54,950 nucleotides of DNA, from NCBI GenBank assembly GCA_016870515.1, contig VGBL01000012.1:1-54950 (forward strand), read 5' to 3'. Under the pieces are notes generated by a model that did not search any database, was not told where the DNA came from, and worked only from the letters and a program-made list of their open reading frames with translations. The stretch's first letter is position 1, and each line of letters begins with the position of its first letter. The DNA comes from Actinomycetota bacterium (GTDB lineage: Bacteria > Actinomycetota > Actinomycetes > S36-B12). The position numbers were made by a program, and so were the translations under genes. Positions 47,631-52,134 of the stretch are shown piece after piece.

Positions 47631-49802
47631 CTAGGACACGACGCCGTAGCGGTGTCGCATGACCGCCGCGATAGCGGTATCGAGATGCGCACCGGTGAGT
47701 TCGGGTCCATCACCCAGGGGCCTGCCCATGAGCAGCAGGGGCACGACCTCTCCGGTGGCGCCGTGCTCCGGCGGGGCGTAGTCCGCGACGGGCAGCAGTT
47801 GCACGCCGTTGCGCTCGTAGAACGCGATGCGTCGTATATGCTCCGCGTGGCCGGGCTCACCCGCCGGATCCTCGACGTCGAGCAGGAGTGCGGTGCGGCC
47901 CTGGCAGGTGAGTCGATCCACCAGGCCGCCGAGCAGACATGCTCCATGACCAGAACTCCGGCGCGAGGAGTCGATGGCGAAGTAGCGCACGAAGGTGAAA
48001 GTCGTGTCGCCGAGATGCCGGATGAGCGCGAAGCCCGCGGGGCCGTTGTCCTCGAGCACGAGGAGTTCCTCGTCGGCTCGGTGCCCGCTGACGCTCGACC
48101 AGTCGGCGCGCACCGAAGCGGGGAACGATGTCTCGTAGATGCGGCGCACCGCATCGTCATGGCGCGCGGCATCGAAGGCGACCAGCGACGCTGGGCGATC
48201 GCGCTGAGTAGGAGGTGGCGAACCCTCAGACGAGGGCTCGCTCGTCGGGCGGTCAGCCCGCGGGCCGATCCAGGTCGACGTGTCGGAATCCCACGTACGC
48301 CCCGGCACGATCTCCTTCTTGGCGACGCGCTCGGAGGGCGTGCGTGGCAGGTCGCCGCGCACCTCCCAGTAGCGCGGCACCTTGAAGCGCGCAATGCGCT
48401 CGAGGCAGTGCGCGTGCAGTTCCGGCACGATCTCGGGCGCGTCGTGATCGTTGGTGAGTACGACGTACGCCTTTACTTCCTCGCCGCATATGTCATCGGG
48501 CACGCCCACGACGGCCGCGAGGCGCACGGCCGGGTGCGATACGAGGGTGTCCTCGACCTCACGCGCAGCGATGTTTTCGCCGGAGCGGCGTACGACGTCC
48601 TTCACTCGACCGACGAGCCAGATGTAGCCCCGCTCGTCCTGGCGGGCGAGGTCGCCGGTGTGCAGCCAGCCACCGCGGAAGGCGCGTGCGGTGGCTTCCG
48701 GCTCGTCGTCGTAGCCGGCCATCATCCCTGCCCCGCGCAGGGTGAGTTCGCCGATGGCACCGGCAGGGAGGGGTTGGTCATCGGCATCGACGATGCGCGC
48801 CTCGCGACCAGCCTTGGGGCGGCCGATGGTTCCGGTGCCGACGCATTGGTCATGGTCGTCGTCGGTGACGTGGATGTCGCCGCCGGTCTCGGTCATGCCG
48901 AAGACCTCGAACCATGGCACGCCCCAGCGCTCTTCCAACTCGCCATGTCGCGCGGGCGGGATTGCCGAGCACTGGATGACGCGCACGCGATGGTCGCGGT
49001 CGAGGGGACTCGGCGGCGTTGTCAGCATGAGCACGGGCATGGAGGCAACGCAGTAGAAGTAGGTGGCGGAGTGCTCGCGCAGTCGGTCCCACACCGTGGC
49101 GGGGTGGAAGCCGTCGAGGACCACGACCGACGCTCCGCTGACCAGGCCCGCGGCGATGTTCCACTGCGGATCCATGTAGGACATCGCCTGCGCCGTGAGC
49201 ATCCGGTCGTCAGCGGTGAGGCGCGGGAAGCCGGTGACCAGGCTGGATGCGAGGTAGAGCCAGTAGTCGTGCGAGAGTTGGCAGCCCTTCGGATGCCCGG
49301 TGGTGCCGGAGGTGAACTGCACGTTGGCCAGCGACGTTGGATCGGGCTCGACGGGTAGCGCAATGGCATTGGAAGGCGCACCCGTCAGGTCGGCGATGTC
49401 GATGATCGGGGTCGACACCGGTGAGATCGATCCCGCGAGTTCGGGTGTCGTCACGACTGCGACGGACCGGGACTTGCCCAGGATCCATGCGGCGTCGTCA
49501 TGCCGGCTCTTCACGCTCAGCGGCACCATGGTGGCGCCTATTCGCGCGAGGGCCAGCCAGATGAGCGAGTACTGCGGACGGTTGTGCAGCATGACGGCGA
49601 CGCGATCGCCGGGCGCGATGCCTCGCGCATGAAGGTGCCGGGCCAGGCGTTCGGCGGAGTCGGCGACCTCGGCGAAGGTGAGCGAAGCTGACGTCTGCGG
49701 CTCCGGGCCCTCGCGCAGGTCGAAGATCCAGGCCGTGCGATCGGGCCAGAGTTCGGCGGCGCGACGTACAGCCTGGGGAAGACTGCGCGGATCGTCGGTC
49801 AT
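47631..49802 (-). CDS. Acyl-CoA ligase (ANL) fused to a GNAT acetyltransferase domain
   Basis: 723 residues. Residues 1 to about 515 are an adenylate-forming ligase: VQFTSGTTGHPKGCQ (A3), FGMTETGG (A5), LHTGDLARQDERGYIWLVGR (A7) and KDVVRRSGENIAAREVE (A8). In the A10 motif the usual SGK reads SER (LPRTPSERVAKKEIV), a variant known in CaiC-like ligases. A linker (PTSEPSSEGSPPP) leads to a C-terminal GNAT domain with the acetyl-CoA loop RRSSGHGACLLGGLVDRL. It activates a carboxylate to the CoA thioester; the added GNAT could acylate a partner or use the product. The enoyl-CoA hydratase gene precedes it by 5 nt. Confidence 0.88.
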   Translation of the reverse strand: MTDDPRSLPQAVRRAAELWPDRTAWIFDLREGPEPQTSASLTFAEVADSAERLARHLHARGIAPGDRVAVMLHNRPQYSLIWLALARIGATMVPLSVKSRHDDAAWILGKSRSVAVVTTPELAGSISPVSTPIIDIADLTGAPSNAIALPVEPDPTSLANVQFTSGTTGHPKGCQLSHDYWLYLASSLVTGFPRLTADDRMLTAQAMSYMDPQWNIAAGLVSGASVVVLDGFHPATVWDRLREHSATYFYCVASMPVLMLTTPPSPLDRDHRVRVIQCSAIPPARHGELEERWGVPWFEVFGMTETGGDIHVTDDDHDQCVGTGTIGRPKAGREARIVDADDQPLPAGAIGELTLRGAGMMAGYDDEPEATARAFRGGWLHTGDLARQDERGYIWLVGRVKDVVRRSGENIAAREVEDTLVSHPAVRLAAVVGVPDDICGEEVKAYVVLTNDHDAPEIVPELHAHCLERIARFKVPRYWEVRGDLPRTPSERVAKKEIVPGRTWDSDTSTWIGPRADRPTSEPSSEGSPPPTQRDRPASLVAFDAARHDDAVRRIYETSFPASVRADWSSVSGHRADEELLVLEDNGPAGFALIRHLGDTTFTFVRYFAIDSSRRSSGHGACLLGGLVDRLTCQGRTALLLDVEDPAGEPGHAEHIRRIAFYERNGVQLLPVADYAPPEHGATGEVVPLLLMGRPLGDGPELTGAHLDTAIAAVMRHRYGVVS

Positions 49803-49807
49803 ACAGG

Positions 49808-50557
49808 TCAGGTCGTGCGGAAGCGGGCGGCCGCGGCATCGTTCTCGCCCGAGTCAAGGGTGGCGAGAGCTGCCTCGACCTCGGCATCGAGTGCCTGCTG
49901 GACGGTCGACTGCATGCTGTCATCAATGAGGCGCTTGGCCAGGCGCAGCGCGATGGGCGGCTTGGCGGATATTTCGCCCGCGATGTGAAGGGCGGTGTTC
50001 TCGTGGGCACCCACGGGCACCACGCGCGTCACCAGGCCCAGTGCTAATGCGCGATCGGCGTCGAAGCGCCCACCGAGCAGCGTCAGCTCCTTCGCGCGGA
50101 TGATGCCCACCATGCGCGGAAGGAGGGCGGAGATGCCGTTGGTGCCGCTCAGCCCGACGTCGACCTCGGGAAAGCCGAAGATCGCATCCTGGGTGGCGAT
50201 CACCAGATCACAACCGAGGGCGAACTCGGCGCCGGCACCGAGTGCATAGCCGTGCACGGCCGCGATGACCAGGCCAGGGAATGACATCGTGCGGCGCGTG
50301 ACGTCCTGCAGTCGCTGCAATCGCGCGCGTGCCTGGTCGCGACTCTCCTGGAGCGGGGGCTCCTTGAGGTCCCATCCCGCGCAGAACGCCGCGCCGTTGC
50401 CAGCCAGAACGATCACCCGCGACTGATCGGCCTCTGCGCGATCGAAGGCCTCGAGGATTCCGTCGACGAGAGCGGGCGTCACCGCGTTCAGACGCCGTGG
50501 CCGATTGAGGCGGATGACGCTGATGCTGTCGCCCTGCGACTCGTAGTCGACCTCCAT
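49808..50557 (-). CDS. Enoyl-CoA hydratase/isomerase family protein
   Basis: 249 residues of the crotonase fold. The oxyanion hole is formed by GNGAAFCAGWDLKE and VHGYALGAGAEFALGCDL. The usual catalytic Glu pair is represented by GAGAE and FPEVDVGLSG, so both glutamates of a hydratase appear present. A TAGCCT box lies 6 nt before the ATG at 50557. It is transcribed with the ligase-GNAT gene; together they look like CoA activation and beta-oxidation of a carnitine-like or aromatic side chain, though the substrate is unknown. Confidence 0.9.
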   Translation of the reverse strand: MEVDYESQGDSISVIRLNRPRRLNAVTPALVDGILEAFDRAEADQSRVIVLAGNGAAFCAGWDLKEPPLQESRDQARARLQRLQDVTRRTMSFPGLVIAAVHGYALGAGAEFALGCDLVIATQDAIFGFPEVDVGLSGTNGISALLPRMVGIIRAKELTLLGGRFDADRALALGLVTRVVPVGAHENTALHIAGEISAKPPIALRLAKRLIDDSMQSTVQQALDAEVEAALATLDSGENDAAAARFRTT

Positions 50558-50595: not shown

Positions 50596-52134
50596 CTAGC
50601 CGTACCAGACCAGCGGGCAGCGCACCTCGGCTGCCGGCACCTTGAGCTTGGTCAGGTATCGGGTGATGGGTTCGTGTACGCACGGGGTGGTACGGCCGTA
50701 GATGATGTGATGCGTTCCCCCGTAGCGGACGAGGCCGGCGCCCGTGAATGCCTCGACCATTTCGAGAGCAGCCGACCAGGGGGTGCGGTTGTCGGCGATG
50801 GAGTTGGCGATGAGCGGCGGGGTGCTCAACGTGATGGGCACCGTGATCTGGCCGAGCGGCCGGCCAAGGGACGGCAAGCCGGCGCACTGGGCACCTTCGC
50901 GCAGGGCCGACTGGGCCACCGGAACGCCGCCGGAGCGAAAGCCCTCCTCGGCGATGGCCGTGAGTTGGTCGATGCTCGGACGGTCGGGCATGTCGGCGCA
51001 GTTGACGTAGGTGTAATGCGGGTCGAACCAGGCGCTTGCGCGAGCTGCGCGCTTGATGGAGCGGGAAGACCGCTTGGAAGCAGCGTCGTACAGCCTGTCG
51101 ATGAGATAGCGGGCGCTGCTCCAGGTGGTCTGGAAGGAAGCCCACTGGATGATGCTGTAGCCGGCTTCCCAACGGTTGAGGCGGCCACCTTCGTAGGGCA
51201 GCGTCTTGGTGTCGAGCGCGCTGAAGACGACCGCGTACTTGCGCCGGTATTCGGGCCCGAAAGCGTCGAGCATGGTGTTGATGGCGGCGGGGTCGTCCCA
51301 GGTGTGCTCACGGGACCATAGCTCGATCGTCGAGACCGGTGAGATGACTCCGTCGAGCAAGAGGGCGCGCACGCGGCTGGGGAAGTACTGCGCGTAGGCA
51401 CGGCCGACGGTCGACCCATAGCTCATCCCCCAGAACGACAGTGTCTCCTCGCCCAGCGCCTCGCGGAGGGCGTCGACGTCGTGCACGATCTGCCAGGTGC
51501 CGACGTAGGGAGCGGTGTCGCGGTTCAGCTTCAGGCAGGCGGCTGCGGTCGCTGCCTGGGCCTTCACGAATTTGGTGACCCATGCCTTCCAGTCGACGGG
51601 GCCGGTCGGCGCAGCATGCGGCGACTTGCCGTTGCACCCGCTGATTACCGGTTGCGACATGCCGACGCCGCGTGGATCCCAGGCGACGAGGTCGAAGCGT
51701 TCGCGCACCTTGGTCGGAAGCAGGCCGTAGACCCAGGAGATGTTGCTCAGCGCCGCGGATCCCGGGCCGCCGGGGTTGAAGGTGAGGACTCCTCTGCGCT
51801 TGCCGGGGCTCGAGGCCGGGATCCGTGCCACGGCGATGTCGTAGGTGCCGGCGACCCTCTTCGATCCCCAGTCGCGGGGGACCACGAGTGTGGCGCAGCG
51901 TGCGGTGCTCGGCATCGACGAGCCGCATGAGCGCCAGTTGAGGGCCGGTGGCGTGTAGGGGATCGCCGTGGGGGCGCTGGCCGCCAAGGTGGCAGGAATC
52001 GTGGTCGCGGTGCGCGAAGCCGACGATGCCGAGACAGGGGGAGCATCGCTTGACGGCACGAGGGCCTGTGACGGGGTAGCGCTTAGCGCCAGGCTGACAG
52101 ATCCGGCGATGATCAGCGTGAGGGCGCGGCGCAC
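50596..52134 (-). CDS. Secreted S33 peptidase with TAP-like C-terminal domain
   Basis: 512 residues. A signal peptide (LTLIIAGSVSLALSATPSQA) is followed by the alpha/beta-hydrolase fold: FNPGGPGSAALSNISWVYGL (oxyanion region), DLVAWDPRGVGMSQPVI and the nucleophile in SFWGMSYGSTVGRAYAQYFP. The C-terminal part has the TAP-like segment with the catalytic His in VRYGGTHHIIYGRTTPCV. Streptomyces relatives are tripeptidyl aminopeptidases. Several cysteine pairs fit an exported enzyme. The GTG start is 6 nt after TAGCAT. Confidence 0.9.
   Translation of the reverse strand: MRRALTLIIAGSVSLALSATPSQALVPSSDAPPVSASSASRTATTIPATLAASAPTAIPYTPPALNWRSCGSSMPSTARCATLVVPRDWGSKRVAGTYDIAVARIPASSPGKRRGVLTFNPGGPGSAALSNISWVYGLLPTKVRERFDLVAWDPRGVGMSQPVISGCNGKSPHAAPTGPVDWKAWVTKFVKAQAATAAACLKLNRDTAPYVGTWQIVHDVDALREALGEETLSFWGMSYGSTVGRAYAQYFPSRVRALLLDGVISPVSTIELWSREHTWDDPAAINTMLDAFGPEYRRKYAVVFSALDTKTLPYEGGRLNRWEAGYSIIQWASFQTTWSSARYLIDRLYDAASKRSSRSIKRAARASAWFDPHYTYVNCADMPDRPSIDQLTAIAEEGFRSGGVPVAQSALREGAQCAGLPSLGRPLGQITVPITLSTPPLIANSIADNRTPWSAALEMVEAFTGAGLVRYGGTHHIIYGRTTPCVHEPITRYLTKLKVPAAEVRCPLVWYG

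Follow-up and report, generated by a model that had tools for sequence, protein, structure and literature searches.

Is a GNAT acetyltransferase that has been joined to an acyl-CoA ligase a switch for that ligase, or a second enzyme of the same pathway? The locus that raises this question lies in a window of 54,950 nucleotides, the whole stretch of DNA analyzed, which is an entire contig (G000:C12) of a 2.4-Mb MAG that is ~97% complete. Here a single ORF of 723 amino acids, read on the minus strand (49802..47631), encodes an AMP-forming acyl-CoA ligase (residues 1-512), a linker and a GNAT domain, an assignment based on the ORF itself, Pfam and full-length orthologues in five other MAGs. The CaiC-like ligase domain (48267..49802) was placed in the ANL superfamily using Pfam, NCBIfam and alignment. 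It is followed by a Ser/Pro-rich linker (residues 514-536; 48195..48263), delimited by junction comparison and predicted to be disordered (pLDDT <50), and then by the GNAT domain (residues ~538-723; 47634..48191), identified by Pfam, a structure model and structural matches. Five base pairs upstream on the same strand is a gene for a 249-residue crotonase of the enoyl-CoA hydratase/isomerase family (49808..50557), as judged from Pfam, NCBIfam, synteny and motif. The crotonase has a 170-bit ECH_1 match in Pfam and keeps both hydratase-type glutamates, in GAGAEF and FGFPEV, which we take to be equivalent to E144/E164 of the rat hydratase. A TAP-like alpha/beta hydrolase (50596..52134, minus strand), called by Pfam and synteny, lies upstream, 38 bp from the crotonase; because only G000, G005 and G007 have a gene of this kind in that position and orientation, we place it outside the core cluster. 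The initial annotation had described a crotonase in an operon with a ligase-GNAT fusion at 47631-50557. That interval correctly spans both genes, and the domains and the operon with the crotonase are borne out.

The ligase domain is well recognized by Pfam, with AMP-binding at residues 13-364 (E 9.5e-71, 239 bits) and AMP-binding_C at residues 415-490 (E 1.9e-16, 61 bits) both above the gathering score. Alignment places all of motifs A3 (TSGTTGHPKG), A5 (GMTET), A7 (HTGD) and A8 (GRVKD) in the protein. Motif A10 departs from the expected sequence: alignment with PDB ligases and a motif survey place Arg492 of SERVAK (residues 490-495; 48318..48335), within the stretch LPRT-PSERVAKKEI, in the position of the ANL catalytic lysine, a residue highly conserved in acyl-CoA ligases (PMC8388817). 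By its domains the protein still belongs to the ANL superfamily despite this difference in the A10 catalytic residue. The nearest-named ligase is CaiC, yet the domain misses the CaiC equivalog NF005947 in NCBIfam (293.5 bits against a cut-off of 651) and reaches 321.4 of 722 on a second CaiC-like model. It resembles the CaiC-like ligases (PRK08008, PRK06155) and their CaiD-type crotonase in fold, motifs and the adjoining crotonase gene, but differs from them in scoring far under the equivalog cut-offs, in the arginine at A10 and in the C-terminal GNAT. No further cai genes were seen beside the fusion locus. CaiC reportedly closes omega-amino acids into lactam rings, although caiC gave no detectable product in the system of the study that says so (PMC11196342).

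The GNAT domain is more divergent. Pfam finds Acetyltransf_1 (PF00583) at residues 552-650 (E 3.2e-4), with 21.4-22.9 bits barely above the gathering cut-off of 20.7. Modelled alone, this part adopts a GNAT fold (pLDDT 82.8), and among solved structures 3ey5 resembles it most closely (Z 16.1 over 153 residues). The nearest solved relatives are 3ey5, which is uncharacterized, and protein N-terminal acetyltransferases; these model-based matches do not point toward a small-molecule acceptor. The acyl-CoA pyrophosphate loop that had been noted as intact is indeed present, read directly from the sequence as RRSSGHGA (residues 614-621; 47940..47963): RSSGHG satisfies the R/Q-x-x-G-x-G/A pattern, and the R, G and G of R-x-x-G-x-G are invariant in 14 family members. 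The domain is a putative acyl-CoA binder and probably transfers an acyl group.

The fusion is not confined to one assembly, one of the outcomes that the initial annotation had named as speaking against it. A single fused ORF was found in six MAGs of one genus (G000, G008, G010, G003, G004 and G006), the five orthologues matching in tblastn at 66-74% identity over nearly the whole length, and it occurs in at least three gene neighborhoods. Three further members (G005, G007 and G009) carry the ligase and GNAT as separate adjacent ORFs with 4-bp overlaps (ATGA, TTGA and ATGA, respectively), so that all nine genus members with the GNAT have it directly beside the ligase or fused to it. Two members, with genomes 86-87% complete, have neither ligase nor GNAT. 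Of the eight genus loci that could be assessed, seven have the crotonase immediately upstream, in at least three kinds of neighborhood; G007 lacks it. The junctions themselves record how the two reading frames meet. In G003, G004, G006 and G010 the linker is almost nil, reading runs through ID/VD-MS, and the former GNAT start codon now lies in frame inside the fused ORF; G000 and G008 have linkers of ~30 residues. Six fused orthologues with in-frame junctions exclude an assembly artefact or frameshift. In both domains synonymous changes outnumber replacements, with dN/dS values of 0.13-0.37 for the GNAT and 0.14-0.16 for the ligase, so that purifying selection acts on the GNAT. The fusion is therefore real and selected. 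Public relatives sharing the GNAT are MAGs from several projects labelled Candidatus Nanopelagicales, Actinomycetales or Actinomycetota, with one 'uncultured bacterium', and a wider scan of public genomes with the GNAT alignment returned eight loci only, all from the same group.

No AMP-forming ligase-GNAT fusion was found described in the openly licensed literature searched, where the GNAT fusions described carry inactive NDP-forming synthetase domains. The closest are the type I and II acetyltransferases Pat/PatZ, which also combine an acyl-CoA synthetase domain and a GNAT in one chain (PMC8556138). Their synthetase domain is of the inactive NDP-forming kind, whereas that of the present protein is an AMP-binding ANL ligase that keeps its substrate and nucleotide motifs save the A10 lysine and so looks catalytically plausible. 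What is new in the fusion is the way in which domains of known families are combined.

The older partner of the ligase is the crotonase. In the phylum sample a crotonase adjoins the ligase in 11 of 11 GNAT-less Actinomycetota relatives, as it also does in G026, and on a plasmid of Tsukamurella tyrosinosolvens (L161:8878-11295) the two form one 805-residue chain (AMP-binding plus ECH_1). Crotonase and ligase are long-standing partners in Actinomycetota, and in most cases no GNAT accompanies them; since they are neighbors in GNAT-less relatives and one chain in Tsukamurella, the crotonase probably takes up what the ligase makes. The surroundings of such pairs hint at the kind of substrate. The Tsukamurella cluster, whose type is also present in Rhodococcus koreensis (L164) and is thus conserved in two genera, includes genes for glutamine-synthetase-like, C26 gamma-glutamyl hydrolase-like, alcohol dehydrogenase and aldehyde dehydrogenase proteins, and the first of these hits the gamma-glutamylputrescine synthetase model with a score under the cut-off. 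A Pot-like ABC transporter precedes ligase and crotonase in Bosea, and amidohydrolase and amidase genes follow the ligase in Pseudosulfitobacter. A TAXI-type (NMT1_3) solute-binding gene lies beside the crotonase-ligase pair in two genomes of family f25 (L110:3032-6147 and L111:3007-3799), with a DctM-type TRAP permease seen at the former; these genes are a candidate importer of the substrate. The recurrence of nitrogenous acids around ligase-crotonase clusters is suggestive, not proof.

The GNAT joined this pair later. In the ligase tree all 15 GNAT-bearing ligases fall in one clade (97/97), within which the genus is nested as a clade of its own (100/100). Among 166 genomes of the order, strong GNAT matches are restricted to the genus, except for one in G057 that is truncated. 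Next best, in a sample of 296 genomes from the class, are matches of 89-129 bits in five genomes of family f14, which also hold the best ligase matches (55-60%), and the genomes with a GNAT match of at least 89 bits are exactly those with the closest ligase matches, the two always lying in the same cluster. Five f96 genomes follow at 80-87 bits, where the GNAT is not near a ligase. In four f96 loci (L137:7386-8510, L138:7553-8668, L140:7861-8931 and L141:8051-9175) a conserved 162-residue protein is encoded next after the related GNAT; it had no Pfam match when tested in L138. The gene order is crotonase, ligase, Amidohydro_3, GNAT in f14, and ligase, 4HBT thioesterase, amidohydrolase, GNAT in G057; the G710 amidohydrolase shares 67% identity with its counterpart in G057 and 71% with the one in G741. 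ORFs of 747-817 residues that appear fused in f14 are wrong-frame read-throughs, the GNAT being a separate gene. An Amidohydro_3 enzyme thus stands between ligase and GNAT in G057 and the five f14 genomes, from which it follows that the GNAT tracks the pathway and not the ligase polypeptide. No orthologue of this amidohydrolase was found in the genus, which has only paralogues at 32-35% identity. The simplest history that these comparisons suggest is that the GNAT was recruited once, that the genus then lost the amidohydrolase, and that overlap was followed by fusion: loss of the intervening gene would have let the GNAT start overlap the ligase stop, which would then have been bypassed. The separate genes of G005, G007 and G009 may alternatively stem from a fission that came later.

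In four f14 genomes of one genus, a divergent KamA-like radical SAM protein is encoded directly after the GNAT (L132-L135), scoring ~145 bits, under the TIGR00238 cut-off of 199. This neighbor recalls the KamA-AblB (YodP) system of beta-lysine acetylation, but a beta-lysine pathway is rejected for the genus under study, because none of three GNATs matched the AblB models of NCBIfam, even with E values as high as 1 allowed, and, two trace matches aside, no KamA of useful score occurs in the genus or G057.

The gene orders also bear on the last option raised by the initial annotation, whereby the GNAT might pass the acyl group made by the ligase directly to an amine, turning the fusion into a one-chain acid-to-amide synthase. 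Such an acyl-CoA is the kind of donor that a GNAT uses, fusion would permit channelling, and the strict adjacency or fusion of the two in nine of nine GNAT-bearing genus members would suit such a transfer. The product, however, already has a consumer in the crotonase, with which the ligase is paired in many GNAT-less genomes and even fused in Tsukamurella, and the GNAT is not adjacent to the ligase in the six other genomes (G057 and the five of f14). Direct transfer is not the most economical reading, and we regard it as unlikely. Somewhat less probable still is a passive joining of co-transcribed neighbors, whereby the GNAT would acylate an unrelated amine or protein and loss of the stop codon would give equal expression only. 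Start/stop overlaps make joins of this kind easy, linker length ranges from almost none to ~30 residues, and the related f96 GNATs exist without the ligase; nevertheless, GNAT and ligase clade co-occur over three families and several gene neighborhoods, and the fused form has been kept in six species under purifying selection.

The arginine at A10 bears on the other reading, control of the ligase by its own GNAT. As had been proposed, the ligase has no acetylatable lysine at A10. The initial annotation had also tied the missing lysine to the GNAT, a connection that fails on comparison with relatives: arginine occupies the position in 15 of 15 GNAT-bearing ligases but also in 9 of the 12 subfamily members that lack a GNAT (G279, G246 and G026 keep the lysine), while [EQ]RV also occurs there in four more distant ordinary ligases. 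As the GNAT-less sister ligases mostly share the same arginine, the loss of the A10 lysine predates the arrival of the GNAT in this sequence comparison; loss driven by the GNAT is rejected. The GNAT-less relatives L110-L120 and L030 represent an acyl-CoA ligase clade with arginine at A10. Lys495, three residues on, is invariant across the genus and G057 and common in GNAT-less ligases too. Because two GNAT-less members (G191 and G381) read SERVAR, with lysine neither at A10 nor at +3, the shifted lysine is not a general replacement for the one at A10.

GNATs do acetylate and inhibit AMP-forming ligases. In the AcuA-AcsA system, which likewise pairs a GNAT with an AMP-forming ligase, AcuA acetylates the A10 lysine, K549, of a separate AcsA protein, and acetylation is abolished in AcsA K549R, although this variant still binds AcuA and binding by itself is inhibitory (PMC11255334). 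Control in cis would then require the fused GNAT to acylate a ligase lysine outside A10, such as the invariant Lys495, or Lys496, in the AKKE that the initial annotation had pointed to, or to inhibit by binding as AcuA does, and it is the least probable of these readings, given that the known target lysine is missing from every GNAT-bearing ligase, that Lys495 is also common in ligases without a GNAT, that the GNAT gene of G057 and f14 lies farther along, beyond the amidohydrolase, and that the relative placement of the domains is not predicted. The orientation in the AlphaFold model of the whole chain was unusable (linker pLDDT <50, pTM 0.63).

The reading that we favor, tentatively and at somewhat less than even confidence, is that ligase and GNAT act in the same short pathway, whose substrate would be a carboxylic acid that bears an amine, or a compound yielding such an acid; two pathway steps are more likely than an on/off switch. 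The steps may run as follows. The GNAT domain would N-acylate a small-molecule amine, and its likeliest donor is acetyl-CoA, which is the usual one for GNATs. The ligase domain would activate the carboxylate to an acyl-CoA, on which the separate crotonase could act by hydration or by loss of a beta-group. With its amine masked, an amino-acyl-CoA would be kept from cyclising to a lactam, and in related lineages the Amidohydro_3 enzyme would take the N-acyl group off again, a mask-on/mask-off logic. That the GNAT joined later, together with the amidohydrolase, when the ligase product already had a crotonase, fits such a pair acting on the amine; as the genus has no orthologue of the amidohydrolase, mask removal is not accounted for there.

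Elements of this two-step reading have precedents. Breakdown of a beta-amino acid by a ligase and a crotonase has been described for the beta-valine pathway, where BvaA-BvaB, like the present locus, combine a CoA ligase with a crotonase-family enzyme; unlike the fusion, BvaA is of the phenylacetate-CoA-ligase type and has no GNAT (PMC4619459). The proposed mask pair would parallel the gamma-glutamyl pair of the distant clusters, by analogy with ligases only 42-46% identical. The PuuA/PuuD pathways put a transient N-acyl mask on and off, and PuuA-/PuuD-like genes lie beside distant ligase-crotonase pairs, but that mask is a gamma-glutamyl group from a glutamine-synthetase-like enzyme, whereas the one proposed here would come from a GNAT. 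A stronger claim, which we think rather unlikely as it stands, is that the fusion is a new type of bifunctional enzyme that, in one chain, masks a molecule's amine and activates its acid, or joins an acid and an amine into an amide, and that it was built on an adenylating clade with arginine for the A10 lysine and so escapes control by lysine acetylation.

Uncultured actinobacteria of one small group have thus united in one protein an enzyme that activates an acid to its CoA form and one that probably acetylates or acylates an amine. The clade with arginine at A10 makes it testable how an ANL ligase adenylates without the A10 lysine and whether acetylation control is evaded. If both domains act on one metabolite, the fusion could be used as a biocatalyst as it stands and, in the manner of a Rosetta stone, would point to an unassigned amine pathway that is conserved in Actinomycetota.
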